Assembly (NCBI GenBank): GCA_023382535.1
Contig: JAHDWA010000123.1
Coordinates: 1 to 18,615, forward strand
Origin: Anaerolineae bacterium
GTDB taxonomy: Bacteria; Chloroflexota; Anaerolineae; 4572-78; J111
DNA: 18,615 nt
Reading direction: 5' to 3'
The notes under the pieces: model-generated
Seen by the model: only the letters and a program-made list of their open reading frames with translations
The model's database searches: none
What the model was told of the DNA's origin: nothing
Program-made: the position numbers and the translations under genes
Part shown: piece by piece, positions 1,210 through 14,767 of the stretch
Position numbering within the stretch: position 1 is the stretch's first letter
Layout: each line of letters begins with the position of its first letter

Positions 1210-1221
1210 ATAAGTATAAAA

Positions 1222-1281
1222 CGTGAAACGTGAGGCGTGAAGATTATGGCAATTTTTACGCATCGCGTTTCACGTTTCCCG
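1222..1281. repeat. Heptamer inverted-repeat element A
   Basis: The left arm is three tandem 7-mers, CGTGAAA CGTGAGG CGTGAAG (1222-1242). After an 18-bp loop, the right arm read on the minus strand is CGGGAAA CGTGAAA CGCGATG (1281-1261). The arms pair with a few mismatches. No T run follows, so a simple intrinsic terminator is unlikely. It lies between the leuC promoter candidate and the leuC start, so it would be in the leuC 5' UTR. Confidence 0.8.
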
Positions 1282-1327
1282 CATTCTGAGGAGAGTCAAA
1301 TTTTTTGATTGAGGTCGAGATATCTCT

Positions 1328-2749
1328 ATGCCAACCAACGGACATCCCCCCAAAACTTTGTTTGAAAAAATCTGGGATAATCACGTCGTCACCGCCGAAG
1401 CCGGCAACCCAACGGTGCTTTATATTGACCTGCATCTGGTTCACGAAGTCACCTCGCCCCAGGCTTTTACCGGGCTGCGCGAGAAGGGCCTCAAAGTCCG
1501 CCGGCCCGATAAAACGGTAGCGACCATGGATCACGGCATTCCCACCACTCCGCCCCACATTCCCATCAGCGATGTCATGGTCATCAAGCAGATTAGCCAG
1601 CTTGAGAAGAACTGCGCCGAGTTTGGCATTCCCCTGCACGGGTTACACAGCCCCAATCGGGGCATTGTGCATGTCATCGGGCCGGAGCTGGGGTTGACTC
1701 AGCCGGGCATGACCATCGTCTGCGGCGACAGCCACACCAGCACTCACGGCGCTTTTGGGGCGCTGGCCTTTGGCATCGGCACCAGCGAGATCGAGCACGT
1801 GCTGGCGACCCAGTGCCTGCTGCAAAACAAGCCCAAAACCTACGCGGTGCGGGTCGAAGGGACGCTGGCCCCGGGCGTGTCGGCCAAAGATATCATCCTC
1901 AACCTGATTTCCCGCATCGGCATCGGCGGCGGCACCGGCCATGTCTTCGAATATATGGGCAGCGCCATTCGCGGCTTGAGCATGGAAGAACGGATGACTA
2001 TCTGTAACATGTCCATCGAGGGTGGGGCCAGGGCCGGCCTGGTTGCCCCTGACGATGCAACCTTTGAGTACATTGCCGGGCGGCCCTACACACCCAAAGG
2101 CCCTGCCTGGGACGCCGCCGTCGCTCACTGGCGCACCCTGCCCACCGACGAGGGCGCGACCTTTGACAAGGAAATCATTATTGACGCCGCTGCCCTGGAA
2201 CCGATGATTACCTACGGGACCAACCCCGGCATGGGCATGAAAATCACTGAGCCTGTGCCCGACCCGGCGGGGATCAAAGACATCAGCGAACGGCAAACGC
2301 TGGAGAAAGCCCTGACCTACATGGATTTGCGGCCCGGCCAGTCGCTGTTGGGCCAAAAAGTGGATGTGGTCTTTCTGGGTAGCTGCACCAACTCCCGTCT
2401 GAGCGACCTGCGGCTGGCAGCCAGCCTGATCAAAGGCCGCAAAGTCGCCGACGGCGTCTATATGATGGTTGTGCCGGGCAGCCAGCAGGTCAAAAAGCAG
2501 GCCGAGGCCGAAGGGCTGGACAAAATCTTTAAAGAGGCTGGGGCCGATTGGCGCGAGGCTGGCTGCTCCATGTGTATTGCCATGAACGGCGACCAGTTAG
2601 AGCCGGGCCAGTACGCCGTCAGCACTAGCAATCGCAATTTTGAGGGTCGCCAGGGCAAGGGCGGACGCACCTTCCTGGCCAGCCCGTTGACCGCAGCGGC
2701 AACGGCGATCACCGGGGTTATCACCGATGTGAGGACAATATTGAACTGA
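1328..2749 (+). CDS. leuC: 3-isopropylmalate dehydratase large subunit
   Basis: Large subunit (473 residues; E. coli LeuC is 466) of the aconitase-family isomerase converting 2- to 3-isopropylmalate. With CimA it also isomerises (R)-citramalate for isoleucine synthesis. The [4Fe-4S] ligands are visible as C353 in GSCTNSR and C413/C416 in GCSMC. Other family blocks are the N-terminal TMDHG and [23 protein letters not shown]. Start chosen at ATG 1328 because an in-frame TGA lies at 1310; GAGG at 1311-1314 is a modest Shine-Dalgarno. The partner LeuD is encoded downstream after a 70-residue gene. No LeuA or LeuB is in the window. Confidence 0.97.
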
Positions 2750-2789
2750 CCATACTGCATTTGCTTCAAGCTGAGGAAGTGAGGAAATA

Positions 2790-3002
2790 ATGGGTCAGAT
2801 AGTAGATGTACAGTACATATCCGATGAACAGGGCAATACCACTGGTGTCATTGTCCCTATCGAACTCTGGCAAGAAATCATGTCGGAAAGAGAGACAGCC
2901 TACCTCTTAAAGAGTAAAGGCATGAAAAAACGTTTATTAGAGGCTAAACAGCACTACGAAGGCATTCCTCTTGAGACAGCCCGAAAGAAACTTGGAATTT
3001 GA
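2790..3002 (+). CDS. Small antitoxin-like protein (Phd/RelB-type family resemblance)
   Basis: A 70-residue protein with a good Shine-Dalgarno (GAGGAAGTGAGGAAA, 2774-2788) and ATG at 2790. The N-terminal half, with ISDEQGNTTGVIVPIELWQEI, resembles the beta-strand part of small 'prevent-host-death'-type antitoxins. The charged helical second half (ETAYLLKSKGMKKRLLEAKQ, then GIPLETARKKLGI) resembles their toxin-binding tail. No toxin gene is adjacent: leuC ends 40 bp upstream and leuD starts 19 bp downstream, so it is embedded in the leuC-leuD transcription unit. It could be an orphan antitoxin or a domesticated regulator. Family assignment is by pattern memory only and is moderate; coding status is firmer. 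Confidence 0.75.
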   Translation: MGQIVDVQYISDEQGNTTGVIVPIELWQEIMSERETAYLLKSKGMKKRLLEAKQHYEGIPLETARKKLGI

Positions 3003-3021
3003 TAAGGAAACTCGAATTTCT

Positions 3022-3636
3022 ATGGAAAAATTTACTACTCTCACCGCTACGATGGTCTCCATCCCAACCGAAAATATTGACACCGACCAGATTATCCCGG
3101 CCCGCTTTTTGAAAGTGACCGATAAAAAAGGGTTGGGCGATAATTTGTTTTGCGATTGGCGTTACAACGCCGACGGCAGCCCCAGACCAGATTTTATTTT
3201 GAACACTGAGCAGGGCCAAAAAGCAAAAATTCTGGTTGCCGGCGACAACTTTGGCTGCGGCTCCAGCCGGGAACACGCCCCGTGGGCCATTATGGGCTAT
3301 GGTTTCCAGGCAGTCATCTCGACCAGCTTTGCCGACATTTTTCGCAACAACTCGCTCAAGCTGGGCTTGCTGCCGGTTGTGGTTGACAAAGAGACTCACC
3401 TGCAATTGATGAGCCTCATCGAGGAGGAGCCGGACACTCAGATTACCGTTGACCTGGCCAGCCAGACCGTGCAACTGCCCGACGGCCGCCGAGTTGAGTT
3501 CCCGATTGACAACTTCAGCAAGACTTGCATTCTCAACGGCATTGACCAGCTTGGTTACTTGCAACACCATACCAGCGCCGTAGAAGCCTATGAGTCGGCT
3601 CATTCCGACCGAGTCAATACGCTGGCGGCAGTTTAG
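3022..3636 (+). CDS. leuD: 3-isopropylmalate dehydratase small subunit
   Basis: Small swivelling-domain subunit (204 residues; family about 200) that completes the LeuCD isomerase. Typical blocks are NIDTDQIIPARFLK near the N terminus and NFGCGSSREHAPWAI in the middle, which carries substrate-contacting residues. ATG 3022 is preferred because AAGGAAA lies at 3004-3010. An upstream in-frame TTG at 2971 would add 17 residues overlapping the 70-residue gene and lacks a family match. Co-directional with leuC; the intervening antitoxin-like gene is unusual. Confidence 0.96.
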   Translation: MEKFTTLTATMVSIPTENIDTDQIIPARFLKVTDKKGLGDNLFCDWRYNADGSPRPDFILNTEQGQKAKILVAGDNFGCGSSREHAPWAIMGYGFQAVISTSFADIFRNNSLKLGLLPVVVDKETHLQLMSLIEEEPDTQITVDLASQTVQLPDGRRVEFPIDNFSKTCILNGIDQLGYLQHHTSAVEAYESAHSDRVNTLAAV

Positions 3637-3647
3637 GTCGCATTATG

Positions 3648-3663
3648 TGTGACATCTGTCACC
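3648..3663. promoter_or_regulatory. CRP-like palindromic operator candidate upstream of fbaB
   Basis: TGTGACATCTGTCACC matches nine of the ten fixed bases of the CRP consensus TGTGA-N6-TCACA. It contains a perfect 6-bp inverted repeat (GTGACA-TC-TGTCAC). It sits in the leuD-fbaB gap about 90 bp before the aldolase start. A second small hairpin (AAGTGG 3668-3673 / CCACTT 3681-3686) follows. No clear -10/-35 pair was found here, so the regulatory role is inferred. Confidence 0.45.
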
Positions 3664-3752
3664 CAATAAGTGGATATTTGCCACTTCTAAAGCTGACTTA
3701 AAAGTTTTAGGATAGTGAGGATTTTCAGTTTTTCTATTTTGAAAGGATATGG

Positions 3753-4808
3753 ATGATGTCAAACCAAATTATTGACCTGCTTGGCGAAAAAGCAGATGAT
3801 CTGTTAAGGTTCGTTTGTAAGGGTATTCCCAAAGAGTCGCTGCACCTGCCCGGCCCTGATTTTGTGGACCGCATCTGGCAGCCCTCGGATCGCAATCCGC
3901 AAGTGCTGCGCAGCCTGCAAAGCATGTACGATCACGGCCGCCTGGCCGGCACCGGCTATCTCTCTATTTTACCGGTGGACCAGGGCATTGAGCATACCGC
4001 CGGGGCTTCCTTTGCACCCAATCCGGCCTATTTTGACCCCGAAAACATCGTCAAGCTGGCGATGGAAGGCGGCTGCAATGCCGTAGCCTCAACCATGGGC
4101 GTCCTGGGGATAGTTGCCCGCAAGTATGCCCATAAGATCCCCTTCATTATGAAAATCAATCACAACGAGCTGTTGACCTATCCCGAAAAGTATGACCAGG
4201 TCATGTTCGGCGGGGTCAAGCAAGCCTGGGATATGGGCTGTACGGCGGTCGGAGCGACCATCTACTTCGGCTCGGCTGAGTCCAACCGCCAGATCGTCGA
4301 AGTCAGCGAAGCCTTTGCTTATGCGCATGAGCTGGGCATGGCCACGGTGCTGTGGTGCTACCTGCGCAACTCCGCCTTCAAGAAAGATGGGGTGGATTAT
4401 CACGTTGGCGCCGATACAACCGCCCAGGCCAACCACCTGGGGGTGACCATCGAAGCGGATATTATCAAGCAAAAGCTGCCCGAAAATAACGGCGGCTTCA
4501 AAGCCATCAGTTTTGGCAAAAGCAGCTCCAAGATGTACGGCGAACTCATGACCGACCATCCGATTGACTGGGTTCGCTGGCAGGTGGCCAACAATTACAT
4601 GGGCCGGGCCGGGCTGATCAACTCCGGCGGCGCTTCCGGCAAAAACGACTTTGCCGAGGCTGTTTATACCGCGGTGGTCAACAAACGGGGCGGCGGCATG
4701 GGCCTGATCTCCGGGCGCAAAGCCTTCCAGCGCCCTATGGCCGAAGGCGTCAAACTCCTCAATCACATCCAGGATGTTTATCTGGACAGCAGTATCACCG
4801 TAGCGTGA
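3753..4808 (+). CDS. fbaB: Class I fructose-bisphosphate aldolase (DhnA/FbaB type)
   Basis: A 351-residue cytoplasmic Schiff-base aldolase cleaving fructose-1,6-bisphosphate to DHAP and glyceraldehyde-3-phosphate in glycolysis and gluconeogenesis. It is collinear with E. coli FbaB (350 residues) over the whole length: [17 protein letters not shown] at 62-78, [16 protein letters not shown] at 203-218, and [16 protein letters not shown] near the C terminus. From the family pattern the Schiff-base lysine should be K239 in ADIIKQK. Shine-Dalgarno GAAAGGA at 3741-3747 allows either ATG 3753 or the next codon (3756). A CRP-like palindrome lies upstream, suggesting carbon-dependent control. Confidence 0.96.
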
Positions 4809-4812
4809 TAGA

Positions 4813-4877
4813 GACCGCCGACCGCGGACTAATGACCGCCGAAAATTCTGGCGGTCTGCCATCTGCGGTCGGCGGTC
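4813..4877. repeat. Heptamer inverted-repeat element B (4 + 4 units)
   Basis: The left arm is GACCGCC GACCGCG GACTAAT GACCGCC (4813-4840), then a 9-bp loop. The right arm on the minus strand is GACCGCC GACCGCA GATGGCA GACCGCC (4877-4850). Units 1, 2 and 4 are conserved between arms while unit 3 has drifted in both. It begins 4 bp after the fbaB stop. No T run follows. Confidence 0.88.
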
Positions 4878-4901
4878 AAAACCGGGCAAGGTTTACTCTA
4901 C

Positions 4902-5021
4902 ATGCCTTATCAACAAAAAGACAGTACCGTCAAACAAGGTGTCAACCGGGCGACAGCCGAATTTGTGGCCGTCGCCCGTGGCATTGGGTCCTCTCTTTTG
5001 AAGATAGAAGATAGAGAATAG
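4902..5021 (+). CDS. Possible 39-residue ORF, doubtful
   Basis: ATG 4902 opens a 39-codon frame whose middle (KQGVNRATAEFVAVARGIGSS) reads like ordinary protein with GC-rich third positions, unlike the repeats on either side. The last residues (KIEDRE) are encoded by element C, whose repeat supplies the TAG stop. There is only a weak Shine-Dalgarno (CAAGG, 4886-4890). It could be a real small protein, the remnant of a gene truncated by insertion of the repeat, or chance. Confidence 0.25.
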   Translation: MPYQQKDSTVKQGVNRATAEFVAVARGIGSSLLKIEDRE

Positions 5022-5074
5022 AGGATAGAGGACCGTCTCTCCTATCTTCTATCTACCATCCTCCATCTACTATC
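5003..5074. repeat. Heptamer inverted-repeat element C
   Basis: The left arm is GATAGAA GATAGAG AATAGAG GATAGAG (5003-5030). After about 9 bp, the right arm on the minus strand is GATAGTA GATGGAG GATGGTA GATAGAA GATAGGA (5074-5040), five units. The unit is quite unlike elements A and B but the layout is the same. It ends about 15 bp before the cimA -35 region. Confidence 0.88.
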
Positions 5075-5089
5075 TTCTACTCGCTCCTT

Positions 5090-5118
5090 TTGCTCTCCCT
5101 TTTCGAAAACCTTATAAT
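5090..5118 (+). promoter_or_regulatory. Sigma-70-type promoter for cimA
   Basis: TTGCTC (5090-5095), a 17-bp spacer, and a perfect TATAAT (5113-5118). Predicted transcription start is near 5125, giving a short leader with GGAGG at 5132-5136 and ATG at 5142. Confidence 0.65.
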
Positions 5119-5141
5119 CAACGGATACTTTGGAGGTTCCA

Positions 5142-6716
5142 ATGACACAGATATTTATCTACGATACCACCTTGCGTGACGGCACGCAGGGCGAAGGCGT
5201 CTCGCTATCCTGCAACGACAAACTGAAAATTGCCCAGAAACTGGATGAATTTGGGGCGCATTACATTGAAGGCGGCTGGCCTGGTTCCAACCCCAAGGAT
5301 GCCGAATTTTTTGCCCGGCAGCATGAGCTAAACCTCAAACATGCCAAGATTGCCGCCTTTGGCAGCACTCGTTATAAAAATACCACCTGCGACCAGGACG
5401 CTAACGTCCAAGCCCTGGTGGCAGCGAACACCCCGGTTGTTACCCTGGTCGGAAAAAGTTGGGATTTGCACGTCCACCACATTCTGGAAACAGACCCGGA
5501 AGAAAACCTAGAGATGATTTCCGAGAGCGTGGCCTATTTTAAGGAGCGCGGCAAAGAAGTCATCTACGATGCCGAGCATTTTTTTGATGGCTACAAGGCC
5601 AATCCCGAATATGCTCTGCTAACCTTGCAAGCGGCTGTTAAGAGTGGGGCCGACTGCGTAGTTTTGTGCGACACCAACGGCGGCTCAACCCCCTGGGAAG
5701 TGGAGGAAATCACCAAGCGAGTCGCGGCTCGATTTGAGGGCCAGCCAATCGGGATTCACCCGCATAATGATTGTGAGTTGGGTGTCGCCAATGCCCTGGC
5801 CGGGGTCCGGGGTGGGGCCAGACACGTCCAGGGCACGGTCAATGGCTACGGCGAACGGGTCGGCAACGCCAATTTGATCAGCATCATCCCCGATTTACAG
5901 CTAAAAATGGGCTATGAATGTGTCAATGAGCGGCAGTTGGCCAGTTTGACGGCTCTTTCCCGCTATGTGGACGAACTGGCCAATATGACCCCCAACCCCC
6001 ACCAGCCCTATGTCGGTTACAGCGCCTTTGCCCACAAAGGCGGTATTCATGTTGCCGCCATCCTCAAGGTCGAGGAGAGTTACCAGCATATGGACCCCAC
6101 CCTGGTCGGCAACCAGAAGCGCGCCGTCGTTTCGGAACTGTCTGGGCGAGGCAACATCCTTTATAAAGCCTCCGAATTCGGTTTGGATACCAGCCGCGAC
6201 GAAGCCAGGCGGGTGTTGGAACAGATCAAGGAACTGGAAAATCAGGGCTATACCTTTGAAGGGGCCGAAGCCTCGGTGGATATGATGCTGCGCCGGGCCA
6301 CGAATGGCTACCAACCGCCCTTTGAAATTGTTGACTTCATGGTTATCACCGAAAGCCGGCAGGGACGCGGCCTTTTTACCGAAGCGACGGTGAAGGTCAA
6401 AGTCGGCCATGAGATTCGCCATACCGTGGCCGAGGGCAACGGGCCGGTCAACGCGCTCAATGGGGCGCTGCGCCGGGCGCTCTATCAGGATTTTCCGCAG
6501 TTACGCAATATCCACCTGACCGATTACAAAGTCCGCATCCTGGACAGCGACGCCGGCACCGCCGCGACAACACGGGTCATGATTGACTTTCAAGAGGAAG
6601 GCACGACTCACTTCTGGACCACCGTCGGCGCGCATGCCAACATCATCGAAGCCAGTTGGCGGGCCTTGATTGATAGTATGGAGTATGCGTTGTTGAACGG
6701 GAGCCGAGGCAAGTAA
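5142..6716 (+). CDS. cimA: (R)-citramalate synthase
   Basis: A 524-residue enzyme condensing pyruvate and acetyl-CoA to (R)-citramalate, the first step of the threonine-independent isoleucine route. An N-terminal HMGL/DRE-TIM barrel starts with YDTTLRDGTQGEG (R12, D13) and includes EGGWPGSNPKD, typical of CimA rather than LeuA. The metal-binding HPHND has H206 and H208; GTVNGYGERVGNANL follows. A LeuA-type dimer/regulatory domain occupies about 385-520, where isoleucine feedback usually acts. ATG 5142 has GGAGG five bases upstream; an in-frame TTG at 5130 precedes that site and is rejected. LeuC and LeuD, which carry out the next isomerisation, lie just upstream. 2-isopropylmalate or homocitrate synthase is less likely from the motifs. 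Confidence 0.94.
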   Translation: MTQIFIYDTTLRDGTQGEGVSLSCNDKLKIAQKLDEFGAHYIEGGWPGSNPKDAEFFARQHELNLKHAKIAAFGSTRYKNTTCDQDANVQALVAANTPVVTLVGKSWDLHVHHILETDPEENLEMISESVAYFKERGKEVIYDAEHFFDGYKANPEYALLTLQAAVKSGADCVVLCDTNGGSTPWEVEEITKRVAARFEGQPIGIHPHNDCELGVANALAGVRGGARHVQGTVNGYGERVGNANLISIIPDLQLKMGYECVNERQLASLTALSRYVDELANMTPNPHQPYVGYSAFAHKGGIHVAAILKVEESYQHMDPTLVGNQKRAVVSELSGRGNILYKASEFGLDTSRDEARRVLEQIKELENQGYTFEGAEASVDMMLRRATNGYQPPFEIVDFMVITESRQGRGLFTEATVKVKVGHEIRHTVAEGNGPVNALNGALRRALYQDFPQLRNIHLTDYKVRILDSDAGTAATTRVMIDFQEEGTTHFWTTVGAHANIIEASWRALIDSMEYALLNGSRGK

Positions 6717-6781
6717 CAGGTAGCAGGGTAGCAAGGTAACAAAGCAGCAGTATGCTACCTTGCGACTTTGCTACCCTGCTA
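6713..6781. repeat. Octamer inverted-repeat element D
   Basis: The left arm is GTAACAG GTAGCAGG GTAGCAAG GTAACAAA GCAGCAG (6713-6750). The right arm on the minus strand reads ATAGCAGG GTAGCAAA GTCGCAAG GTAGCAT (about 6781-6752). The dominant period is 8 bp rather than 7. The first unit contains the TAA stop codon of cimA, so the array abuts or overlaps coding sequence. Confidence 0.86.
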
Positions 6782-6796
6782 TATAGTTAAATTTTC

Positions 6797-7288
6797 ATGG
6801 ACAGACACGGGATACACCCCACCGCCCAAAGAGTAGCCGGTGCCGCCCGCGAATTAGGGCTGGACATCACCATCAAGGAATTTGAAGAAACCACCCGCAC
6901 CGCCGAAGACGCGGCCAGGGCGATTGGCTGCACGGTCGCTCAAATCGTCAAGTCGCTGCTGTTTGTGGTTAACGGCCAGCCGGTGATGGCCCTGGTCAGC
7001 GGCCCCAACCGGCTGGATGAAGGCAAGCTGGCTGCGCTGTGCGGCGTTGGCAAGAACAAAGTCAAACGCGCCGACGCCGACACCGTGCGCGAAGCGACCG
7101 GTTTTGCCATTGGCGGCGTGCCGCCATTTGGCCATGTCACTCACTTACCGGTCTACATTGACCAGGATTTCTGGCAGTTTGAGGTCATCTGGGCGGCAGC
7201 CGGCACACCAAATGCCGTTTTTGCTGTTGCTCCCAACGAATTGAAACGAGTTACCGGGGGAGTAGCCGCCGAACTGAAAGTGGCATAG
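6797..7288 (+). CDS. YbaK/EbsC-family aminoacyl-tRNA deacylase
   Basis: A 163-residue single-domain protein of the YbaK/ProRS-editing superfamily, which hydrolyses mischarged aminoacyl-tRNA (in characterised members Cys- or Ala-tRNAPro). Visible family features are the conserved lysine K52 in QIVKSLLF, the loop TGFAIGGVPPFGH at 101-113, and the late-domain IWAAAGTPNAVF at 131-142. It is a free-standing editing domain, with no synthetase nearby. The start ATG 6797 lies 16 bp after element D and has no clear Shine-Dalgarno. Exact tRNA specificity cannot be read from the sequence. Confidence 0.88.
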   Translation: MDRHGIHPTAQRVAGAARELGLDITIKEFEETTRTAEDAARAIGCTVAQIVKSLLFVVNGQPVMALVSGPNRLDEGKLAALCGVGKNKVKRADADTVREATGFAIGGVPPFGHVTHLPVYIDQDFWQFEVIWAAAGTPNAVFAVAPNELKRVTGGVAAELKVA

Positions 7289-7298
7289 CCTTAGGCGG

Positions 7299-7316
7299 GT
7301 CAAAGTGTACTTTGAC
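7299..7316. promoter_or_regulatory. 18-bp palindrome, possible operator
   Basis: GTCAAAGT-GT-ACTTTGAC is a perfect 8-bp inverted repeat with a 2-bp centre, 10 bp after the YbaK-type gene and about 100 bp before the methyltransferase start. Its size suits a dimeric transcription factor. No T run follows, so it is not an intrinsic terminator. Confidence 0.45.
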
Positions 7317-7352
7317 ATTTCTGGGTCGTGATCTTCAAGTGAATCAACCTCA

Positions 7353-7381
7353 TGTGCAAATTATAGGGAGAGGAGTATAAT
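7353..7381 (+). promoter_or_regulatory. Candidate promoter for the CcrM-like gene
   Basis: A perfect TATAAT at 7376-7381 with only a weak -35 (TGTGCA, 7353-7358, 17-bp spacer). A GAATC site (7341-7345), possible substrate of the encoded methylase, lies just upstream. An isolated TTGACA at 7388-7393 has no usable -10. Confidence 0.4.
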
Positions 7382-7414
7382 TAAGTATTGACATAACGTT
7401 AGAAAGAGGTCTAA

Positions 7415-8506
7415 ATGCAGCGACAAGAACTGCCCCTCGATCAAATTATTCAGGGCAACTGCCTGGAAGTACTCGCTACACTCCCCGAAAAGAGTATTGA
7501 CTTAATTTTTGCCGACCCCCCCTATAATCTCCAACTGCAACAAGAACTGTGGCGGCCCAACATGACCAAAGTAGATGCGGTTAACGACGATTGGGATCGC
7601 TTTAACAGCCTGACCGAATATGACGAGTTTACCCGAGCCTGGCTTTATGCCTGCCGGCGGGTGCTCAAAGATACCGGCGCTCTTTGGGTCATCGGCTCCT
7701 ATCATAATATTTATCGCGTTGGCAGCATTTTAATGGATTTAGGCTACTGGATTCTCAACGACGTGGTCTGGGTCAAAGCCCAGCCGATGCCCAACTTTCG
7801 CGGGGTCCGCTTTACCAATGCCCACGAAACACTGCTGTGGGCGCAGAAAAATCGCGGGGCGCGTTACACCTTCAATTACCAGGCCATGAAGGCGCTCAAC
7901 GGCGACCTGCAAATGCGCAGCGATTGGGAGATTCCCCTGTGTACCGGCAAGGAAAGAATCAAGATTAACGGGGCCAAAGCTCATGCCACCCAGAAACCGG
8001 AGGCGCTACTCTACCGGGTCATTCTGGCCAGCTCCAATCCGGGTGATGTGGTGCTCGATCCATTTTTTGGGACCGGCACAACCGGCGCCGTCGCCAAAAA
8101 ACTTCACCGCCACTGGCTCGGTATTGAACGGGAGGCCGACTACGTGCGCCTGGCCCAGGAACGCCTTGATGCGATTCAGCCGCCGCCTTTTGCCGAGGAC
8201 ATCTTTAGCTTCAAAAGCAAGCGCGACCGCCCGCGTATCTCTTTCAGCACGTTGCTGGAGCGGGGTATGCTGCAACCGGGGCAAAAATTATATCTGGGTA
8301 AAAAGGGGGAAACAACGGCAACCATCCTGGCTAACGGCCACCTCAAGGTCAACGGGCACATCGGCTCGATTCACCAGGTGGGGAAGATGCTGCACAACGG
8401 CCCCTGCAATGGCTGGGAACACTGGCATTACCTCGACGAAGCCACCGGCGAGCGGGTCGCCATTGACGAGCTGCGCGAGCTGATTTGGGCGGAGCAGCAA
8501 AGATAG
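7415..8506 (+). CDS. ccrM: CcrM-like DNA adenine N6-methyltransferase (probable GANTC specificity)
   Basis: A 363-residue beta-class adenine methyltransferase. The catalytic DPPYN (D34-N38) precedes the SAM-binding FGTG motif (D215PFFGTG), the beta order. Strings shared with Caulobacter CcrM are extensive: WVIGSYHNI at 91-99, MPNFRG, AHETL, QMRSDW.IPLCTG and TQKPEALLYRVIL. The C-terminal ~95 residues (270-363, with GSIHQVG and CNGWEHWHY) correspond to the RAMA-like extension that CcrM needs for DNA binding. Specificity for GANTC is inferred from this similarity. AAAGAGG at 7403-7409 supports the ATG. No endonuclease gene flanks it, so it is probably an orphan regulatory methylase, possibly acquired by transfer. 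Confidence 0.92.
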   Translation: MQRQELPLDQIIQGNCLEVLATLPEKSIDLIFADPPYNLQLQQELWRPNMTKVDAVNDDWDRFNSLTEYDEFTRAWLYACRRVLKDTGALWVIGSYHNIYRVGSILMDLGYWILNDVVWVKAQPMPNFRGVRFTNAHETLLWAQKNRGARYTFNYQAMKALNGDLQMRSDWEIPLCTGKERIKINGAKAHATQKPEALLYRVILASSNPGDVVLDPFFGTGTTGAVAKKLHRHWLGIEREADYVRLAQERLDAIQPPPFAEDIFSFKSKRDRPRISFSTLLERGMLQPGQKLYLGKKGETTATILANGHLKVNGHIGSIHQVGKMLHNGPCNGWEHWHYLDEATGERVAIDELRELIWAEQQR

Positions 8507-8515
8507 TGGAATTTG

Positions 8516-8578
8516 TTGGAAGAATGGAAGGGTGGAAGATCAGTAAAATTCCGACCTTCCACCCTTCCATTCCTCCAA
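8516..8578. repeat. Octamer inverted-repeat element E
   Basis: The left arm is TTGGAAGA ATGGAAGG GTGGAAGA (8516-8539). The right arm on the minus strand is TTGGAGGA ATGGAAGG GTGGAAGG (8578-8555). Only two of 24 positions differ. The loop is 15 bp. It lies between the convergent ends of the methyltransferase gene and the SUMF1-fold gene, where a bidirectional transcript end is expected, although no T run is present. Confidence 0.9.
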
Positions 8579-8629
8579 AAGCTTGGTGTTATCTATCTCT
8601 TGAAACGGCCAAAAGCCTTGCGCCCCTTT

Positions 8630-9394
8630 CTACGTTTCTGGAGAGACCGCACAGCGGAAGCCGACATTATTGTAAAACTGGAAATCCCCATCCAGCCGGG
8701 AGAGGCAGTTGGCCACGCTGGCGTCATTAACCCACGAAGCCCCGCGCAGCACCCGAAAGCCTTCGGCCTGGCGGCTCTCGCGCCCATCATCGGGAATATA
8801 GGGGAAGGGGTAAAACAGGCTGTTAGTCCACTCCCAAACATTACCAACCATATCAATTACACCTTCCGGCGTATCGCCGGCCGGGGAGAAGGCGCCCACC
8901 GGGCTGGTTTCTTTTAAGCCGGCCTCTTTGCAATTGCAGTATTCCGCCGCAAAATCATCCCCCCAGGCATAACGCCGGCCCTTGAAGCCGCGCGCAGCCC
9001 GTTCCCACTCCGCTTCGGTCGGCAAACGTTTGCCCGCCCAGGCGGCATAAGCCATCGCGTCGGCCCAGGTGACCAGCACCACCGGATGGTCGGCCTTGCC
9101 CGCCGGGTACATGCGAGCGTGTGGGTCCCAATTGTATCCCCGAGTGTCACACCAACTAACTTCATAATTAGGCACAGTATAGCCAGTCGCATCCACAAAC
9201 TTCTTGTACTCGGCATTGGTGACCGGCCAGCGGTCCAGGTAAAAATCGGCCACTGAAACCCGGTGTTTGGGTTGGTGATTGGGGTGGCCATCGTCGCTGC
9301 CCATGATGAAAGTCCCACCAGAAATAAAGATCATTTCTTTGCCATCATTGGGCCAGACGATGATAGAGGAGGTGCTTTTAGGGTTTTGGGTCAT
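8630..9394 (-). CDS. SUMF1/FGE-fold protein lacking the FGE cysteine pair
   Basis: A 254-residue single-domain protein of the formylglycine-generating-enzyme/SUMF1 fold: GGTFIMGSDDG at 26-36, PVTNAEYKKF at 57-66, RLPTEAEWERAARG at 123-136, GNVWEWTN at 184-191, RGASW at 217-221, GFRCA at 245-249. In true FGEs two cysteines five residues apart follow the GGS(W/F) block; here the region reads WVNDASVANCLSR, with only one cysteine, so copper-dependent formylglycine formation is unlikely. It starts 18 bp after the FHA protein gene with AGAGG upstream, so the two are probably co-transcribed. SUMF1-fold proteins beside FHA proteins often belong to phospho-signalling systems; the function is otherwise unknown. 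No signal peptide is visible. Confidence 0.9.
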   Translation of the reverse strand: MTQNPKSTSSIIVWPNDGKEMIFISGGTFIMGSDDGHPNHQPKHRVSVADFYLDRWPVTNAEYKKFVDATGYTVPNYEVSWCDTRGYNWDPHARMYPAGKADHPVVLVTWADAMAYAAWAGKRLPTEAEWERAARGFKGRRYAWGDDFAAEYCNCKEAGLKETSPVGAFSPAGDTPEGVIDMVGNVWEWTNSLFYPFPYIPDDGRESRQAEGFRVLRGASWVNDASVANCLSRLDGDFQFYNNVGFRCAVSPET

Positions 9395-9412
9395 TGTTAT
9401 CTACCTCTTGGA

Positions 9413-10636
9413 TTAAATTGCCACATCATAAGCCAGCACACAGCCGCCCAGCCAGATATGATCCCCCGGTTTGAGGGGGACCGCCTGCCCCAGGAGCAGG
9501 ACTTCCCCATTGAGACGGGTCCCAAAACCGCTGCCCAGGTCCTCCACATAAGGACTGCCGTTCCGCCAGCTAATAACGGCATGCCGCCGCGAGACGCGGA
9601 CGGCGATGTCGCCAACGGCGCTCAGGTCAATATCGGGGACAAAGTCTACATAACGATCGGAGCGGCCGATGACGATTTCATCGGGGGGAGTAATGATCAC
9701 CTGTTCCCCAGTAGGGGCCATCAGGGTATGGCGAACCTGTGCCGTAGCCACGACGATCAAGCGATCAACCGGGACCATATCGTAGTAAAGCTTTAAATTA
9801 CCCAGGGTAATCTGATCGCCATGCTGAAGCTGGCGCGAGGGTCTAAATTTTATTGGTTCACCGTTAAGAAAGAGGCCGTGCCGGCTGCCCAGGTCCTCGA
9901 CTGTATGGCGTCCATCCAAACCGACGATTTTAGCATGGCGGCGCGAAATCGCTCTCGCCCCGGCATCTTCATAGGCCAGATCAACGTCGGGGGGCAGACC
10001 CAGGTTGGGATCAAATCGCCCCAGGACCAACTCGCCGGAAATTGGCAGAGCGATGTGCCGGCTGCTGGTATTAACGGTCAACCAATACGGTTTGGTCTGA
10101 CTGCTAGCCGCTTTCTGGGCTTTATTGGGTAAGTATTTTGGCAGCGCCTCCACTGCTCCGATAACGTCCGGGCGCGGTTCGCCGTTTGAGGCAGCCCAGG
10201 CCGGCGTTTCAGGCGACAGATGGCCCAGCGACGAAGTTTCCCAGCGTGATTCGGGCTTGGTTGGCGATTGCGGCGGGGTTTCCTTCTCCGTCGGGGTCGG
10301 GGGATCAGGCGGGGTCGAAGCAACGGGCTGAAGATAATCAGGACGTTTGGGGGGGGATTGGGCCGCCTGGGCTTGCTCAGCCGAGACATTTTCTTTGGAT
10401 TCGCGGATCTGGCGCAGGCGGCGAGCCAGCAGTGACTCTTCCTGGGGGTCTTTTCTGTTCCGTTCCTCATCCGCTTTAACCAGGAGACAATTGATTTGCA
10501 GCAGTCCCCAGGTGGAGCGAGTGTCGGTTCGCGCCGTAAAGGCATGGCGAATCATCGTCTTGATGCTGGGAGCGTTGTTGCTCTCGTCAATACAGCGGTT
10601 TCGGATGGGGCACTTACGGCAATCGTATTTGAACAT
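9413..10636 (-). CDS. Tandem FHA-domain protein with N-terminal Cys cluster
   Basis: A 407-residue protein. The N terminus has CRKCPIRNRC (C6, C9, C15), a possible metal-binding knuckle. It is followed by a charged helical stretch and a Pro/Thr-rich linker (about 90-145). Two forkhead-associated domains then follow at about 200-285 (GRF..., SRRHA, DLGSRHGLFLNG) and 318-402 (GRSD..., SRRHA, DLGSGFGTRLNG), both with the phosphothreonine-binding GR, SRRH and NG residues intact. Start 10636 is chosen because GAGGGGAAG lies 10-13 bases upstream. An in-frame ATG at 10657 has no ribosome site and would lie only about 15 bases from the predicted transcription start. It is probably a phosphothreonine-reading adaptor for a Ser/Thr kinase encoded elsewhere. 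Confidence 0.9.
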   Translation of the reverse strand: MFKYDCRKCPIRNRCIDESNNAPSIKTMIRHAFTARTDTRSTWGLLQINCLLVKADEERNRKDPQEESLLARRLRQIRESKENVSAEQAQAAQSPPKRPDYLQPVASTPPDPPTPTEKETPPQSPTKPESRWETSSLGHLSPETPAWAASNGEPRPDVIGAVEALPKYLPNKAQKAASSQTKPYWLTVNTSSRHIALPISGELVLGRFDPNLGLPPDVDLAYEDAGARAISRRHAKIVGLDGRHTVEDLGSRHGLFLNGEPIKFRPSRQLQHGDQITLGNLKLYYDMVPVDRLIVVATAQVRHTLMAPTGEQVIITPPDEIVIGRSDRYVDFVPDIDLSAVGDIAVRVSRRHAVISWRNGSPYVEDLGSGFGTRLNGEVLLLGQAVPLKPGDHIWLGGCVLAYDVAI

Positions 10637-10678
10637 TGACCGGCAACTTCCCCTCATTGGGTAATTGAGTCTACTTCA

Positions 10679-10707
10679 AGTATAGCATCAGGCAGGAGGG
10701 CTGTCAA
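10679..10707 (-). promoter_or_regulatory. Near-consensus promoter for the FHA/SUMF1 operon
   Basis: On the minus strand: TTGACA (10707-10702), a 17-bp spacer, TATACT (10684-10679). Transcription should start near 10672, about 36 bases before the chosen FHA-protein start. Confidence 0.8.
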
Positions 10708-10758
10708 CGGAATTTTGAAATATGGGAACATTTCAATTGGGGGCAGCTTTAGCCCCTT

Positions 10759-10814
10759 CTGGAAAACCTGGAAGATTGGAAGCTGGGAAAGCACGTTCAT
10801 TTCCAATCCTCCAA
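10759..10814. repeat. Octamer repeat element F (degenerate)
   Basis: The left array is CTGGAAAA CCTGGAAG ATTGGAAG CTGGGAAA (10759-10790). The right side has only two units, ATTGGAGG ATTGGAAA on the minus strand (about 10814-10799). The unit resembles that of element E (TGGAAG core). It is less symmetrical than the others and lies in the divergent promoter region. Confidence 0.65.
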
Positions 10815-10886
10815 TAGCAATACGTCAACTTTAATATGAAAAATTTCGCCCCAAAAGTGAAACACACTCGGCCTAATGCTTCCAAA

Positions 10887-10915
10887 TTGACAAAGTCCGG
10901 TCAAAAAACTATAGT
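10887..10915 (+). promoter_or_regulatory. Near-consensus promoter for the KdaD-like gene
   Basis: TTGACA (10887-10892), a 17-bp spacer, TATAGT (10910-10915); transcription should start about 50 bases before ATG 10972. The -35 is part of TTGAC-N8-GTCAA (10887-10904), a possible repressor site. Confidence 0.78.
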
Positions 10916-10971
10916 ACGGGCTGCCCTTCGATAGATATCCATAACACCAAAACTAACCCCCTGGAGGCCCC

Positions 10972-11868
10972 ATGCTACAAATTTGTCGCTTTTTTCAACC
11001 CGGCGCCGGCCCGCGTCTGGGAGTTGTATTTAACGAGCAGGTTTACGACTTGACCGCCACGGGCCAGGCTGCCTTTTCCTCGCTTACAACCTGGTTGAGC
11101 TGGGTCAGCCAGCAGGGGACGGCCCGGGCTGCCCAGCACCTGGCCGAGGTGAGCGCCGCCCTCACCCCGCTCTATGCCTGGGCCAACCTGCAACACCCGC
11201 CCGCTGCCAGCCGGCCGCACCTCCTGCCGCCCCTCGACGCCCAGGAGGTCTGGGCCGCCGGTGTGACGTACCGGCGCAGCCGCGAAGCCCGCGAGGAAGA
11301 GTCAAACAAGATTGGCGTTTATGACAAGGTTTACAGCGCCTCCCGGCCTGAACTTTTCCTCAAGGCAACGCCACACCGGGTCGTCGGTCCCCACGATTTT
11401 ATTCGTGTCCGCGCTGACGCCCATTGGACGGTCCCCGAACCGGAATTGACCGTGCTGGTCGCGCCGGATTTGCAGGTAGTGGGATATACCGCTGGTAACG
11501 ATGTCTCATCGCGGGACATCGAAGGAGAAAATCCGCTTTATTTGCCCCAGGCCAAAATCTACTCGCGCAGTTGCGCCCTCGGTCCGGCCATTACTCTGGC
11601 GGCCGACCTTAACGCTCCCGTGCAGATTAGTTTGACAATTGAACGGGCAGGGCAGGTCGTTTTTGCGGGAGAAGTCAGTACGGAGCAGATGAAACGCTCA
11701 ATTGACGAACTGGTTTCCTACCTGGGACGAGAGAACGAATTTCCTAACGGGGTTTTTCTGATGACCGGTACCGGCCTGGTACCGCCGGATGACTACACCT
11801 TACAAAGCGGCGACGTAGTCGAAATTGGCATCGAACGGGTTGGCCGCCTGGTCAATCCGGTTCAATAG
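10972..11868 (+). CDS. kdaD: 2-dehydro-3-deoxy-D-pentonate dehydratase (KdaD-like, FAH superfamily)
   Basis: A 298-residue fumarylacetoacetate-hydrolase-fold protein, the same length as Sulfolobus 2-keto-3-deoxy-D-arabinonate dehydratase. The metal triad is visible as E156 and E158 (VPEPEL) and D177 (GNDVSSRD), with the spacing of the archaeal enzyme (2 and 19 residues). GVTYRRSREAREEE (97-110) and SRDIEGENPLYLPQAKIY (180-197) are typical of this subgroup. The expected reaction is 2-keto-3-deoxy-D-pentonate to 2-oxoglutarate semialdehyde. GGAGG at 10963-10967 supports ATG 10972. The convergent cluster encodes a xylonate-type dehydratase that would supply its substrate. Another FAH-family hydrolase or isomerase activity cannot be excluded. 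Confidence 0.85.
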   Translation: MLQICRFFQPGAGPRLGVVFNEQVYDLTATGQAAFSSLTTWLSWVSQQGTARAAQHLAEVSAALTPLYAWANLQHPPAASRPHLLPPLDAQEVWAAGVTYRRSREAREEESNKIGVYDKVYSASRPELFLKATPHRVVGPHDFIRVRADAHWTVPEPELTVLVAPDLQVVGYTAGNDVSSRDIEGENPLYLPQAKIYSRSCALGPAITLAADLNAPVQISLTIERAGQVVFAGEVSTEQMKRSIDELVSYLGRENEFPNGVFLMTGTGLVPPDDYTLQSGDVVEIGIERVGRLVNPVQ

Positions 11869-11881
11869 TGGGTCAGCCATT

Positions 11882-12835
11882 CTAGAGAATACTCTTCAAA
11901 GTCTCCAGGCTGATGTTGGCCCCGCAGATAACAATAACCACGTTTTGAGCGGGGAACTGCTCGGCTGTTTTGAGATAGGCGGCCACAGCAACTCCTGCCG
12001 CCCCTTCGATAAGCATATGCTGGGTTTCGATGACCAGGCGCATGGCTGCTTTGATTTCTTCTTCGCTCACCAATACGTAGTCATCCACCCACTTCTGGCA
12101 CAATTCAAAGGTGATAGCCCCCGGCTCGATCCCCCCGGCGCTGCCGTCCGACAGGGTGGGGAGGGAGTCCATCTCGATAATCCGGCCTGCCTTGACCGAC
12201 TCGGCCATGACCGGTGAGTTCTCCGGCAAACAGCCGATGACCTTGATCCCCGGCCTGGCCGCTTTGAGATAGCCGGCAATCCCGCTAATCAGCCCCCCGC
12301 CGCCGATGGTCACAAAAACGGCGTCAATCGGGTCCAACTGCCGGGCCAGTTCCACCCCAATCGTGCCCTGGCCGGCGATAATTTGCTCGTCATTGTAAGG
12401 TGAGATGTAAACCATCCCATGTTGGTCCGCGTAGTCGCGGGCGTAAAGTTCGGTCAGGCCGCTGTCGTTACCGTGGCTGTGAACCTCTGCTCCAAAGCGC
12501 CGGATCATTTCGACTTTTACCGGCGAGGCATTTTCCGGCACAAAAATCTGCCCCTGTAATCCCAGGCGGCTCAGGCCGTAGGCCACTGCCGCGCCGTGGT
12601 TGCCGGAAGAGGCCGTCACAATTCCCTGGGCGCGCTGCTCCGGGGTCAACGTGAGTAGCTTATTCATCGCTCCGCGCAGTTTGAACGAGCCGGTCGGTTG
12701 GAGATTTTCCAGCTTGAGATAAACGTGGCCCTGCCCCCTTTGACTCAGCGCCAGGGCAGGCTCCAGGGGCGTTTCACGAACGTAGGGCCGAATTCGCTGT
12801 TCGGCTTGAGTTGCTTCGATTTCAGGCTCCATCAT
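11882..12835 (-). CDS. Threonine/serine dehydratase-like PLP enzyme, no ACT domain
   Basis: A 317-residue fold-type II PLP enzyme. The PLP lysine is K52 in GSFKLRGA; the phosphate/substrate loops are ASSGNHGAAVAYG (75-87) and the glycine loop GGGGLISG. The length and absence of a C-terminal ACT regulatory domain match catabolic (TdcB-type) dehydratases rather than biosynthetic IlvA. It could deaminate threonine to 2-oxobutyrate or serine to pyruvate; serine racemase or hydroxyaspartate dehydratase activities occur in the same family. It is the last gene of the minus-strand cluster and ends 13 bp from the convergent KdaD-like gene. Two adjacent ATG codons (12835, 12832) are possible starts; neither has a clear Shine-Dalgarno. 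Confidence 0.88.
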   Translation of the reverse strand: MMEPEIEATQAEQRIRPYVRETPLEPALALSQRGQGHVYLKLENLQPTGSFKLRGAMNKLLTLTPEQRAQGIVTASSGNHGAAVAYGLSRLGLQGQIFVPENASPVKVEMIRRFGAEVHSHGNDSGLTELYARDYADQHGMVYISPYNDEQIIAGQGTIGVELARQLDPIDAVFVTIGGGGLISGIAGYLKAARPGIKVIGCLPENSPVMAESVKAGRIIEMDSLPTLSDGSAGGIEPGAITFELCQKWVDDYVLVSEEEIKAAMRLVIETQHMLIEGAAGVAVAAYLKTAEQFPAQNVVIVICGANISLETLKSIL

Positions 12836-12895
12836 AGTTACAGCTAATACTCACTTGATAAACTTTGATTTCAATAGAGGCAACAGCCTGTCATC

Positions 12896-13636
12896 TCACT
12901 GCGCCGTGAATCCACCATCAATCAGCACCCCCGTGCCGGTAATATACGCGGCCTCATCCGAAGCCAGGAACAGGGCCAGATTGGCTACCTCTTCCGGCCG
13001 GCCAATCCGTTTCAAGGGCAGGCTGGCGATGAACTTCTCGTGGGCGGCGGCATCCCCGATAGTGGCGGCGGGGGTGTCAATCGCGCCGGGCAGAATAGCT
13101 ACCACGCGAATCTCCGGGGCGAGCTCCAGAGCCAGGGCGCGGGTAAGCGACATGACCCCGCCTTTGGCCGCTTGATAGGCGGCGTAACCGGGCACGCCGA
13201 CAACGCTGTGGATAGAAGCGGTGTTGAGGATAACGCCCCTTCCCCGCGCCCGCAGGTGAGGCGCAGCAATCTTGGCCGCCAACCACACCGGCCGCAGGGT
13301 CACGTCGAGCGTGTGCTGCCAGTTCTCCAGCGTGGTTTCCAGGGCTGGCCGGGCTTCGGTCCAATAAGCGTTGTTGTGCAAAATGTCCAGGCTGCCGTAG
13401 GTAGTCACAGCAAACTCGACCATCCTCGCTAAATCCGCTTCCCGTCCCACATCAGTTTCGATAAAGACCGCCTGCCCACCCTGGGGCGTGATCTGCTCAA
13501 CCGTGGCCTGGCCGCCTGCCTCGTTAATATCGGCGACCACCACCCGCGCCCCTTCCTGGGCAAAACGGATCGCTGTCGCCCGGCCAATCCCCGACGCTGC
13601 TCCGGTGATAATGGCCACTTTACCGGCTAGTCTCAT
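12896..13636 (-). CDS. SDR-family oxidoreductase
   Basis: A 246-residue classical short-chain dehydrogenase/reductase. The nucleotide-binding TGAASGIG is at 11-18, the catalytic Ser141, Tyr154 and Lys158 (NTAS, then YQAAK), and the C-terminal [12 protein letters not shown]. The usual NNAG motif reads NNAY. An acidic residue after the second strand (VVVADIN) suggests NAD(H). Start 13636 has GGAG eight bases upstream; a further in-frame ATG at 13693 lies in repeat element G and is rejected. The substrate is not evident. In this sugar-acid cluster it could oxidise a pentose/hexose or a keto-acid intermediate. Confidence 0.9.
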
Positions 13637-13650
13637 CTTCAAACTCCACT

Positions 13651-13698
13651 TTTGATTTGCGAAGCCAGATGTTAATCGTAAATCAAAAATCAAAAATC
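13651..13698. repeat. Heptamer repeat element G
   Basis: On the minus strand four tandem units, GATTTTT GATTTTT GATTTAC GATTAAC (13698-13671), then a short inverted partner TTTTGATTTGC on the plus strand (13651-13661). The array starts 2 bp after the stop codon of the zinc dehydrogenase gene and ends near the ribosome site of the next SDR gene. It is AT-rich, unlike elements A-E, and its second arm is incomplete. Confidence 0.7.
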
Positions 13699-13699
13699 G

Positions 13700-14743
13700 T
13701 CAGGCAAAGTTAATCATACATTTAATCGTTTCCGGCGAGGTCAAAAGCTGGTCGAACAGCGCCGGCCCTTCGCTCAGCGTGGCCCGCCGGTTGATGAGTT
13801 GTTCCGTTGGGATACAGCCGTCGGCCAGCATCCGCAGCGAGCGCTGGAAATCCTCACCGGTCATGCCGTAGGAACCGATGACCGCCAGCTCGCGTGTCAC
13901 CACCGCCTGCATGTCAATCTCGATTATGCGCTGGTTGTTGCCAATCCAGATGACCGTGCCTTTGTTGCGCGTCACTTCCAGGCTTTGCTGGGCGGTGGCG
14001 CTCAGGCCGACAGCCTCAAAGGCCAGGTCCACCCCGCTGCCGTTGGTAAATTCATTGACCACCTGGCGCGGATTTTGCCGGGTAGGGTTGATGGCCACCT
14101 GCGCGCCAATGGCCCGGGCCAGTTCCAGCCGGGCATCGCTGGCGTCGCTGACCGCGATCAGGCTGACTCCGGTCAACTTGAGCACCGCCAGCGTCAGCAG
14201 GCCAATCGGCCCCGCGCCGACAATCAAGGCGGTATCGTAAGGCCGGATGGGGGCCAGGCTGACCGCATGGACCGCCACGGCTAACGGCTCGGTCAGCGCC
14301 CCGTTTTCGTAGGACAGGTTTTCGGGCAAAGGAAAGAGGTTCGCCTCCGGCCAGATAACGTACTCGGCATAAGCGCCGGGCGCGTTCATGCCCATCAAGC
14401 GCCGGTTTTCGCACACATTCCGCCGCCCCGCCAGACACTGGGGGCAAACTCCGCAAAACTCGACCGGCTGGACGGCTACCCGGCTGCCAGGCAACAGGTT
14501 CTTTACGGCATTACCCACGGCCGCCACTTCGCCGGTGGCTTCGTGGCCCATAATCAGCGGCGGGATGCGCCGCCCGGTCTGGCCGGTGTAGCCGTGCAGG
14601 TCAGACCCGCACACCCCAACTGATTTGACTCTCAACAGCACTCCATCAGGCCGGTCAAGCGCGGGCACAGGCAGTTCGACCAGTTGGTGCTCCCTGATGG
14701 CAGTAAACATTAAGGCTTGCATAGAAGATTTAATGGTTGTCAT
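13700..14743 (-). CDS. Zinc-dependent medium-chain dehydrogenase (polyol/sugar type)
   Basis: A 347-residue MDR-family NAD(P)-dependent dehydrogenase. The catalytic zinc ligands are C45 (GVCGSDLHGY), H67-E68 (MGHEATG) and E152 (TEPLA). The structural zinc site is C97, C100, C103, C111. The Rossmann motif GAGPIG is at 176-181. An aspartate after the second strand (SDASDARL) points to NAD. The arrangement fits the sorbitol/threonine/galactitol dehydrogenase group acting on polyols or sugar derivatives. The upstream heptamer array supplies the Shine-Dalgarno (AAGGTGAAGG). It lies 24 bp downstream of the neighbouring SDR gene in the same operon. The exact substrate is unknown. Confidence 0.9.
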   Translation of the reverse strand: MTTIKSSMQALMFTAIREHQLVELPVPALDRPDGVLLRVKSVGVCGSDLHGYTGQTGRRIPPLIMGHEATGEVAAVGNAVKNLLPGSRVAVQPVEFCGVCPQCLAGRRNVCENRRLMGMNAPGAYAEYVIWPEANLFPLPENLSYENGALTEPLAVAVHAVSLAPIRPYDTALIVGAGPIGLLTLAVLKLTGVSLIAVSDASDARLELARAIGAQVAINPTRQNPRQVVNEFTNGSGVDLAFEAVGLSATAQQSLEVTRNKGTVIWIGNNQRIIEIDMQAVVTRELAVIGSYGMTGEDFQRSLRMLADGCIPTEQLINRRATLSEGPALFDQLLTSPETIKCMINFA

Positions 14744-14766
14744 TTTCGACCTTCACCTTTCACGTT
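14744..14766 (-). repeat. Heptamer run at the dehydrogenase ribosome site (element H)
   Basis: On the minus strand: CGTGAAA GGTGAAG GTCGAAA directly followed by ATG. The first unit is identical to that of element A. No inverted partner is seen. The middle unit is the best Shine-Dalgarno for the dehydrogenase gene. Confidence 0.5.
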
Positions 14767-14767
14767 T

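Follow-up and report, generated by a model that had tools for sequence, protein, structure and literature searches.

The window, by which we mean the whole stretch of 18,615 bp analyzed here (contig JAHDWA010000123.1 of an Anaerolineae bacterium), contains terC, leuC, leuD, an aldolase gene, cimA (assigned by TIGR00977), a gene for an aminoacyl-tRNA editing domain, a DNA methylase gene and others. Between these genes lie short elements in which a tandem array of a 7 or 8 bp unit is followed by the same array in inverted orientation (Table 1). A first, sequence-only reading had described at least seven such elements as sharing one architecture. Here we connect them to S23 genes, which in related genomes are framed by inverted arrays of the same kind.

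Elements were called with a free-unit detector that accepts any unit of period 5-12, requires two opposite-strand tandem arrays no more than 60 bp apart, and scores the inverted match. At each of three thresholds it returned five of the seven, with periods 7 and 8, and made no further calls in the window; 20 dinucleotide shuffles of the window per threshold yielded none. The common architecture holds for these five, and the remaining two are weak. At 10759..10814 period 8 is seen in the left arm only, and at 13651..13698 a period of 7 is present in one arm (2.7 copies; Tandem Repeats Finder, TRF, 13680-13698), the other arm being non-tandem. Single-strand DNA folds were compared with 200 shuffles per element, and for five of the seven, 13651..13698 included (0/200), no shuffle folded equally well. 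Five of 200 shuffles were as good for 10759..10814 and 15 of 200 for 5000..5079. The fold of the latter is unexceptional; its inverted arrays are clear, and its arms differ in unit number, as had been noted from the sequence.

Table 1. Inverted tandem-array elements of the window (fold z, single-strand DNA fold against shuffles)
Position	Element and unit	Setting	Basis	Fold z
1219..1281	inverted array, period 7, unit CGTGAAA	terC-leuC gap	detector, inverted score 13	-6.5
4813..4877	inverted array, period 7, unit GACCGCC	4 bases 3′ of DeoC/LacD-type aldolase stop codon	detector	-8.65
5000..5079	inverted array, period 7, unit GATAGAG	upstream of cimA	detector, score 19	-1.65
6719..6781	inverted array, period 8, unit GGTAGCAA	just 3′ of cimA stop codon	detector	-6.2
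8517..8577	inverted array, period 8, unit TGGAAGGN	convergent-gene gap, 10 bases 3′ of DNA-methylase stop codon	detector, score 20	-8.0
10759..10814	weak element, left arm roughly period 8 (CTGGAAGN)	divergent-gene gap	arm periodicity; not called by detector	-2.4
13651..13698	weak element, unit GATTTTT	adjoins stop codon of minus-strand gene 13700-14743	TRF; not called by detector	-3.4

The elements do not have the layout of intrinsic terminators, in which the stem is followed directly by a run of T. Runs of four to six T occur only some bases beyond 1281, 5079 and 6781, and none of the 27 terminator-like sites found in the window by a consensus scan for loops of 3-8 (22.3 in shuffles) overlaps an element. 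Promoter-like sites, which are consensus matches only, number 21 in the window and 8.1 in shuffles, and two of them (1213-1241 and 6760-6787) overlap elements. The stretch 14744-14780, between two minus-strand genes, resembles by eye one leftover arm of a GTGAAAGG-type array.

Elements of this kind are abundant in relatives. The best 80 of 589 cimA loci in genome collections (1.31 Mb) held 35, of which 17 had period 7, 9 had period 8 and 9 had other periods, several of these last in GC-rich sequence. A single shuffle of this DNA returned 4 elements, with neither period 7 nor period 8 among them. In genome G005 we found 62 in 330 kb (period 7 in 47, period 8 in 6, period 9 in 5 and other periods in 4), a density above 100 per megabase, compared with a single element in five shuffles. 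A third sample, 67 kb of genome G001 that takes in its syntenic locus L001 (83% in CimA), held four. The sequence-only reading had proposed a comparison with shuffled DNA, and density is far above that of shuffles in the window, the cimA loci and G005. That reading was also right that the unit sequences are many and do not form a single family of repetitive extragenic palindromes (REP) or bacterial interspersed mosaic elements (BIME).

Two of its other proposals were not supported. Units were described as private to each locus, yet the same units recur as families at many G005 loci (GAGACTG, GATTGAA, CCGTATT, GAGGGAT and CGTGAAA, for example). The strand of the unit in the 5′ arm is fixed: 336 clear-match pairs of G005 elements agree and 5 disagree, although these pairs are not independent of one another. 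The CGTGAAA family of 1219..1281 recurs with equal polarity in G005 (L087, L089). Local homogenization of the two arms was likewise not borne out, since an element's own partner arm was its best match in only 7 of 47 G005 elements, with a median rank of 6 of 46; partner arms resemble each other more than the average arm does, without special homogenization at the locus.

Placement favors gaps. Crude open reading frames (ORFs) take up 83% of the sequence, yet the midpoints of 44 of the 58 period-7/8/9 elements fall outside them. By crude ORF calls again, 29 of 43 gene ends that face an element overlap it or are no more than 20 bp away. At locus L005 of G005, an element begins at the stop codon of each of three consecutive same-strand genes.

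The test of S23 started from the idea that four-helix-bundle genes might sit in such arrays. TIGR02436 matched all 10 element-bearing genomes tried (62 matches) and none of 14 control genomes. When the best 30 of the 62 matches were fetched, 4 proved too short in flank, and 19 of the other 26 loci carried the same unit, inverted, on both sides of the ORF. A second set, from relatives of G005 (29 new loci of 117 matches, 3 too short), gave paired inverted arrays at 20 of 26 loci. The sets have no locus in common, and some loci are orthologous. With ORFs placed by hidden Markov model (HMM), paired arrays framed 41 of 58 S23 ORFs from both sets plus a few more loci, with period 7 in 33, 8 in 5, 9 in 2 and 12 in 1. 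The complete form is a tandem array of a 7 bp, sometimes 8 bp, unit, an S23 four-helix-bundle gene, and the array inverted. No paired arrays were found at 21 Y1_Tnp control loci (from 41 matches, of which 30 were fetched and 9 of these proved too short), in shuffled flanks, or around 112 ordinary ORFs of 80-250 aa in G005. Very long single arrays lie beside some S23 genes (L145).

The full forms in relatives resemble an intervening-sequence (IVS) element, with S23 (PF05635/TIGR02436; the Pfam assignment was checked on one protein) between inverted repeats, and the window copies have no ORF. Neither is inside a 23S rRNA gene: 40 S23 loci searched for rRNA gave no match, and the window elements lie between protein genes. 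In Pfam, the one array-framed S23 protein tested matched no transposase, though one encoded elsewhere might act on the elements. A PLSDB search with one S23 query returned 37 plasmid records, mostly from Nostoc and other cyanobacteria, and 11 of the 15 records fetched (14 cyanobacterial, two pairs near-duplicates) have paired arrays. The two ribonucleotide reductase genes of Nostoc edaphicum have an S23 gene with AGTAGGG arrays between them. Among 50,697 phage records the S23 query had no hit.

In G005, ORF-less and S23-bearing forms have matching units. Paired arrays frame six of eight HMM-placed S23 ORFs of G005, and two further G005 matches (L098 and L283) have arrays on both sides by eye. 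The six framed loci match ORF-less units of G005 at scores of 20-35, with a mean best score of 27.0; for 36 S23 loci of other genomes compared with the same units the mean best was 16.2 (Mann-Whitney p 7e-4). As with miniature inverted-repeat transposable elements (MITEs), the ORF-less copies in G005 share their ends with a coding S23 element of the same genome. Four of the seven window units match S23-locus arrays at 14-18, on a score without a null of its own. The GATAGAG unit of 5000..5079 matches L151 and L147, the latter in the syntenic relative G001; GATTTTT matches L236 and L134; the period-8 locus L233 scores 14 against the unit of 6719..6781; and the unit of 1219..1281 is also near the array of L242. 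Locus L216 matches 4813..4877 in the opposite polarity (20 vs 9), an exception to the polarity rule, and the unit of 8517..8577 had no matching S23 array at a score of at least 12.

A scan of 1.96 Mb made without reference to S23, looking for paired arrays separated by 230-1600 bp, found only four: one around a truncated S23 ORF, one period-9 pair around an ilvC-like gene, and two around other short ORFs. Full forms are rare, and the scan is no independent proof. Several individual loci stand out. At L057 (16214-17368), two period-9 CTCTGTG/CACAGAG arrays face outward around the ilvC-like gene, opposite to the usual polarity. The S23 matches of G087 and G094 (the genomes of L040 and L048, titled Myxococcales) are close opposite-strand pairs with about 18-36 bp between them; each genome has several such places, which may represent another S23 layout. 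Elsewhere, a tRNA gene lies on either side of S23 locus L148, a group I intron is near L152, and on the Pseudanabaena galeata plasmid pPg_01 (L327) an S23 gene with heptamer arrays is flanked by cas6 and cas4 within a CRISPR locus.

We then compared the presence of ORF-less elements with that of S23 across genomes, counting S23 in 79 of the 80 cimA-locus genomes (that of L044 was left out). The 45 S23-positive genomes (658 kb) held 26 period-7/8 elements, in 14 genomes, and the 34 S23-negative genomes (628 kb) held none; ORF-less elements were seen only in genomes that carry S23 (Fisher test on genomes, p 1.7e-4). Restricting the comparison to Chloroflexota, by record titles, left 12 of 29 S23-positive and 0 of 14 S23-negative genomes with elements (p 0.004). 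In other stretches from relatives of G005, there were 12 period-7/8 elements in 200 kb of seven S23-positive genomes and none in 193 kb of six S23-negative ones.

The gaps in the L005 gene run of G005 were compared with those of 12 relatives 68-84% identical there, running the detector on each gap; in all three gaps further loci lacked flank or were spanned by the alignment. Gap 1 has GATTGAA in G005, a period-7 ACTGATT array in G026, a period-10 CGCGGAGA-type array in G035 and, by eye only, a looser array in G041; no element was called in G039, G028, G045, G030 or G033, where the gaps are 18-66 bp. Gap 2 has CCGT in G005, GAGATTG in G026, CGTGATG in G041 and a period-8 GTGGCGAA array in G035, with none called in G039 (24 bp), G028, G045, G030 or G033. 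Gap 3 has a period-8 GGTGAAAA array in G005 and none called in G045, G030 or G033, the seven loci spanned there by one alignment being left unread. Orthologous gaps of related species thus hold different families or none. The cimA-ybaK gap likewise has a GGAGATTG array in L001 where the window has GGTAGCAA.

The L139 gap, between two same-strand genes, adds the S23 form itself. An orthologous S23 element of about 500 bp with GAGGGAT arrays is present in G005 and G026, which are 77% identical over 3.3 kb at this locus. ORF-less arrays of other families were called in the same gap in G031 (period 8) and in G039 and G038 (period 7), and a GGTAATT array was seen by eye in G041; none was called in G028 or G035, and none was seen by eye in G042, G036 or G030. 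This is the clearest sign that one kind of site can be occupied by either the S23 form or the ORF-less arrays.

S23 is not the only gene framed in this way. GxxExxY genes, whose products are PF13366 PDDEXK_3 proteins in the two cases tested, have paired arrays at 14 of 21 loci (62 matches, of which 30 were fetched and 9 of these were too short) and at one of three plasmid loci (of 8 records). A CAC(A/G)GA-like core is frequent in the arrays of the 14. The period is 9 in nine of the 14 and 8, 10 or 11 in the rest. These PD-(D/E)XK-like genes, whose array units measure about 9 bp, form a parallel lineage, and array period goes with the framed protein, mostly 7 for S23 and mostly 9 for GxxExxY.

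We know of no established function for S23 proteins (23S_rRNA_IVP). Two solved relatives, 2gsc and 2rld, have five chains each, which fits a pentamer; 2gsc is the entry named XCC0516, which we take to come from Xanthomonas campestris. Among S23 protein pairs more than 60% identical, 63% of 19 have a unit in common, compared with roughly 8-24%, depending on identity, among other pairs. Recognition of a short core of the unit by S23 is possible on these comparisons. PF22296 (bAvd) matches one S23 protein below cut-off, and this links S23 to Avd, the accessory protein of diversity-generating retroelements (DGRs); the homology of Avd and PF05635 is noted in PMC10053308 (this and the other papers cited are represented here by excerpts). 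Avd works beside a reverse transcriptase. RVT_1 correlates with S23, with matches in 26 of 31 S23-positive and 1 of 9 S23-negative relatives. Unlike the situation with Avd, however, 5 of the 31 S23-positive genomes, whose completeness is unstated, have no RVT_1 match, and reverse transcriptase as a strict partner of S23 is weakened as a candidate.

Among the closest published systems is the IVS of Coxiella 23S rRNA (PMC4990558), where an S23 ORF lies between stem-forming inverted repeats, directly preceded by tandem heptamers that vary in number among strains, with an RNase III cut at the first repeat; the element is called selfish and its mobility is hypothesized. The S23 elements described here share the ORF between inverted repeats and the adjoining heptamers. 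They differ in being intergenic and multi-family, whereas the IVS occupies one site in 23S rRNA, and the excerpts of PMC4990558 mention neither inverted heptamers in the far arm nor dispersed ORF-less copies. The sequence-only reading had suggested that an inverted, locus-private version may be undescribed; inverted pairs of single families are already in print. In Xanthomonas, tandem GGGAATC heptamers form 70 (Xcc) and 75 (Xac) close convergent pairs, generally with no link to mobile elements seen (PMC4692102); this is one unit family, studied as a G-quadruplex former, and S23 is not mentioned in the text seen of that paper. Geobacter metallireducens has opposite-strand octamers (24 pairs), three-unit arrays (21 paired sites) and five heptamers (8 pairs), few families, read as sites for regulators of the integration host factor (IHF)/HU type (PMC2700814). 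The Beggiatoaceae TAACTGA heptamers are intergenic and near gene ends, and a mobile repeat-binding protein has been hypothesized for them (PMC4679880), but they are a single unit, direct and mostly upstream of starts.

The short tandemly repeated repetitive sequences (STRRs) of filamentous cyanobacteria have been described as direct heptamer arrays of several families, intergenic and not known to encode a protein. The kinship with cyanobacterial arrays that the sequence-only reading proposed is upheld by the intergenic, family-forming tandem heptamers found here and by the plasmid S23 genes of the same host group that heptamer arrays frame; as we understand STRRs, they are direct only, unlike the paired and inverted arrays of the window. 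We found no open-licence PMC literature linking dispersed intergenic arrays with S23 or GxxExxY, and the excerpts of PMC8934634, PMC8700078, PMC5524665 and PMC10910872 hold no such link. What is new is the S23-type element outside rRNA with tandem-array arms, together with its ORF-less derivatives.

Our preferred reading, to which we give a probability of about 70%, is that the window elements, ORF-less and MITE-like, belong to a family of small S23 insertion elements, whose mobility and requirement for S23 we infer. In such a scheme the S23 protein, probably a pentamer and a distant relative of Avd, would bind the repeats on a two-arm hairpin of RNA or single-stranded DNA, perhaps with one protomer per repeat unit. 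It would act in trans on ORF-less copies, letting copies of the element enter intergenic gaps by a host activity, after which unit number would change by slippage. Insertions would survive where they fall between genes, in many cases directly at a stop codon.

Several observations weigh against this reading. The S23 evidence comes from genomes other than the window's own, and S23-positive and S23-negative genomes, of unstated completeness, differ also in size and lineage; G034 and G063 are S23-positive with no elements in the stretches sampled. Between 23 and 29% of S23 loci have no paired arrays, among them L153 and L284, the two such HMM-placed ORFs of G005, and the loci are partly orthologous across species and not all independent (L139/L224, L128/L219/L230/L231/L235, L133/L232). 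Over 41 S23 loci, similarity of protein and unit is only slightly correlated (Mantel r 0.095, p 0.025) and not significantly so below 60% identity. Earlier subsets gave stronger values (r 0.34 for 24 proteins, r 0.28 for 15), but the full set is the one to trust because motif filtering had removed loci from the subsets. Neither the boundary of an insertion nor a target-site duplication could be defined, and no recent insertion event was caught, since the genomes compared are only about 66-84% identical. Turnover is not always fast, as 83% of Xanthomonas array sites are common to two species (PMC4692102).

The arrays might instead be born in place, by polymerase slippage with hairpin template switching, with S23 genes as separate elements that home into them. 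This would suit the great variety of units, the unequal arms at 5000..5079, long single arrays such as that at L145, the strain-variable heptamers beside the Coxiella ORF (PMC4990558), the undefined insertion boundary, and the idea, cited in PMC4679880, that 7 nt suits polymerase slippage. It sits badly with units that recur at many loci in fixed polarity, with arms that seldom have their own partner as best match (7/47), with the absence of period-7/8 elements from the loci sampled in 34 S23-negative genomes, and with orthologous gaps that are empty or hold other families, and we consider it unlikely. Of the speculations in the sequence-only reading, neither a transposase nor slippage by itself proved the useful lead; the correlate that emerged is the S23 gene, and GxxExxY with its longer period. 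Selection on functional RNA hairpins between operon genes, as 3′ ends, mRNA stabilizers or RNase III sites, could explain the placement at stop codons (29 of 43 gene ends, three L005 genes), and the strong DNA folds of five window elements and the RNase III cleavage of S23 intervening sequences in 23S rRNA (PMC4990558) agree with it. Placement is equally well explained by survival of insertions, the elements are missing or replaced in relatives, and no terminator-like site overlaps them, their T runs lying some bases on; this explanation appears improbable.

Short, palindromic, intergenic elements recall REP/BIME-type repeats moved by REP-associated tyrosine (RAYT, Y1) transposases, and Y1_Tnp genes are present in 8 of 10 element-bearing genomes. 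The other two, G006 and G008, bear elements with no Y1_Tnp (PF01797) match, none of 21 Y1 loci is framed by paired arrays, and the elements share no single core sequence; a RAYT/REP origin, already disfavored, was rejected as extremely improbable. Scarcely more probable is that they are binding sites of a global regulator such as IHF/HU. The paired opposite-strand layout of short tandem units is the same as at the Geobacter sites for which this was proposed (PMC2700814), but many unrelated units per genome and differing families at one orthologous gap are a poor fit to one regulator, and the arrays around S23 would be left unexplained.

A broader view of the preferred S23 reading is more tentative, and we rate it as slightly short of an even chance. 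Cyanobacterial STRRs, the Xanthomonas GGGAATC pairs, the Geobacter paired sites and the window hairpins may all be ORF-less forms of one class of bacterial mobile element that would not need its own transposase. S23 oligomers or GxxExxY proteins would read the arrays, with the period set by the protein and the sequence largely free, and would copy array pairs in trans into gaps; the intervening sequences of 23S rRNA would be the branch inserted in rRNA. The heptamers beside the Coxiella S23 ORF support such a class.

Other features of the window concern its genes. A candidate manganese riboswitch of the yybP-ykoY type (RF00080) lies at 10-159, upstream of terC, at 26.8 bits (gathering score 45; E 9e-6 in a 300-base search). 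The leuC-leuD gap holds a small Phd/YefM- or RelB-like antitoxin ORF (2790-3002; both Pfam matches below cut-off), in place of which L001 has, by eye, an AGGATT-type inverted repeat.

Bacterial heptamer arrays have been reported piecemeal for decades with no agreement on their origin, and the link to S23 offers a possible one. Tying the arrays to S23 gives both a testable role, in which S23 spreads or maintains the arrays. The elements suggest an overlooked type of mobile element and, if the reading is true, a dispersed element would be reshaping intergenic gaps, and a relative of Avd would be acting on repeats in a new setting.

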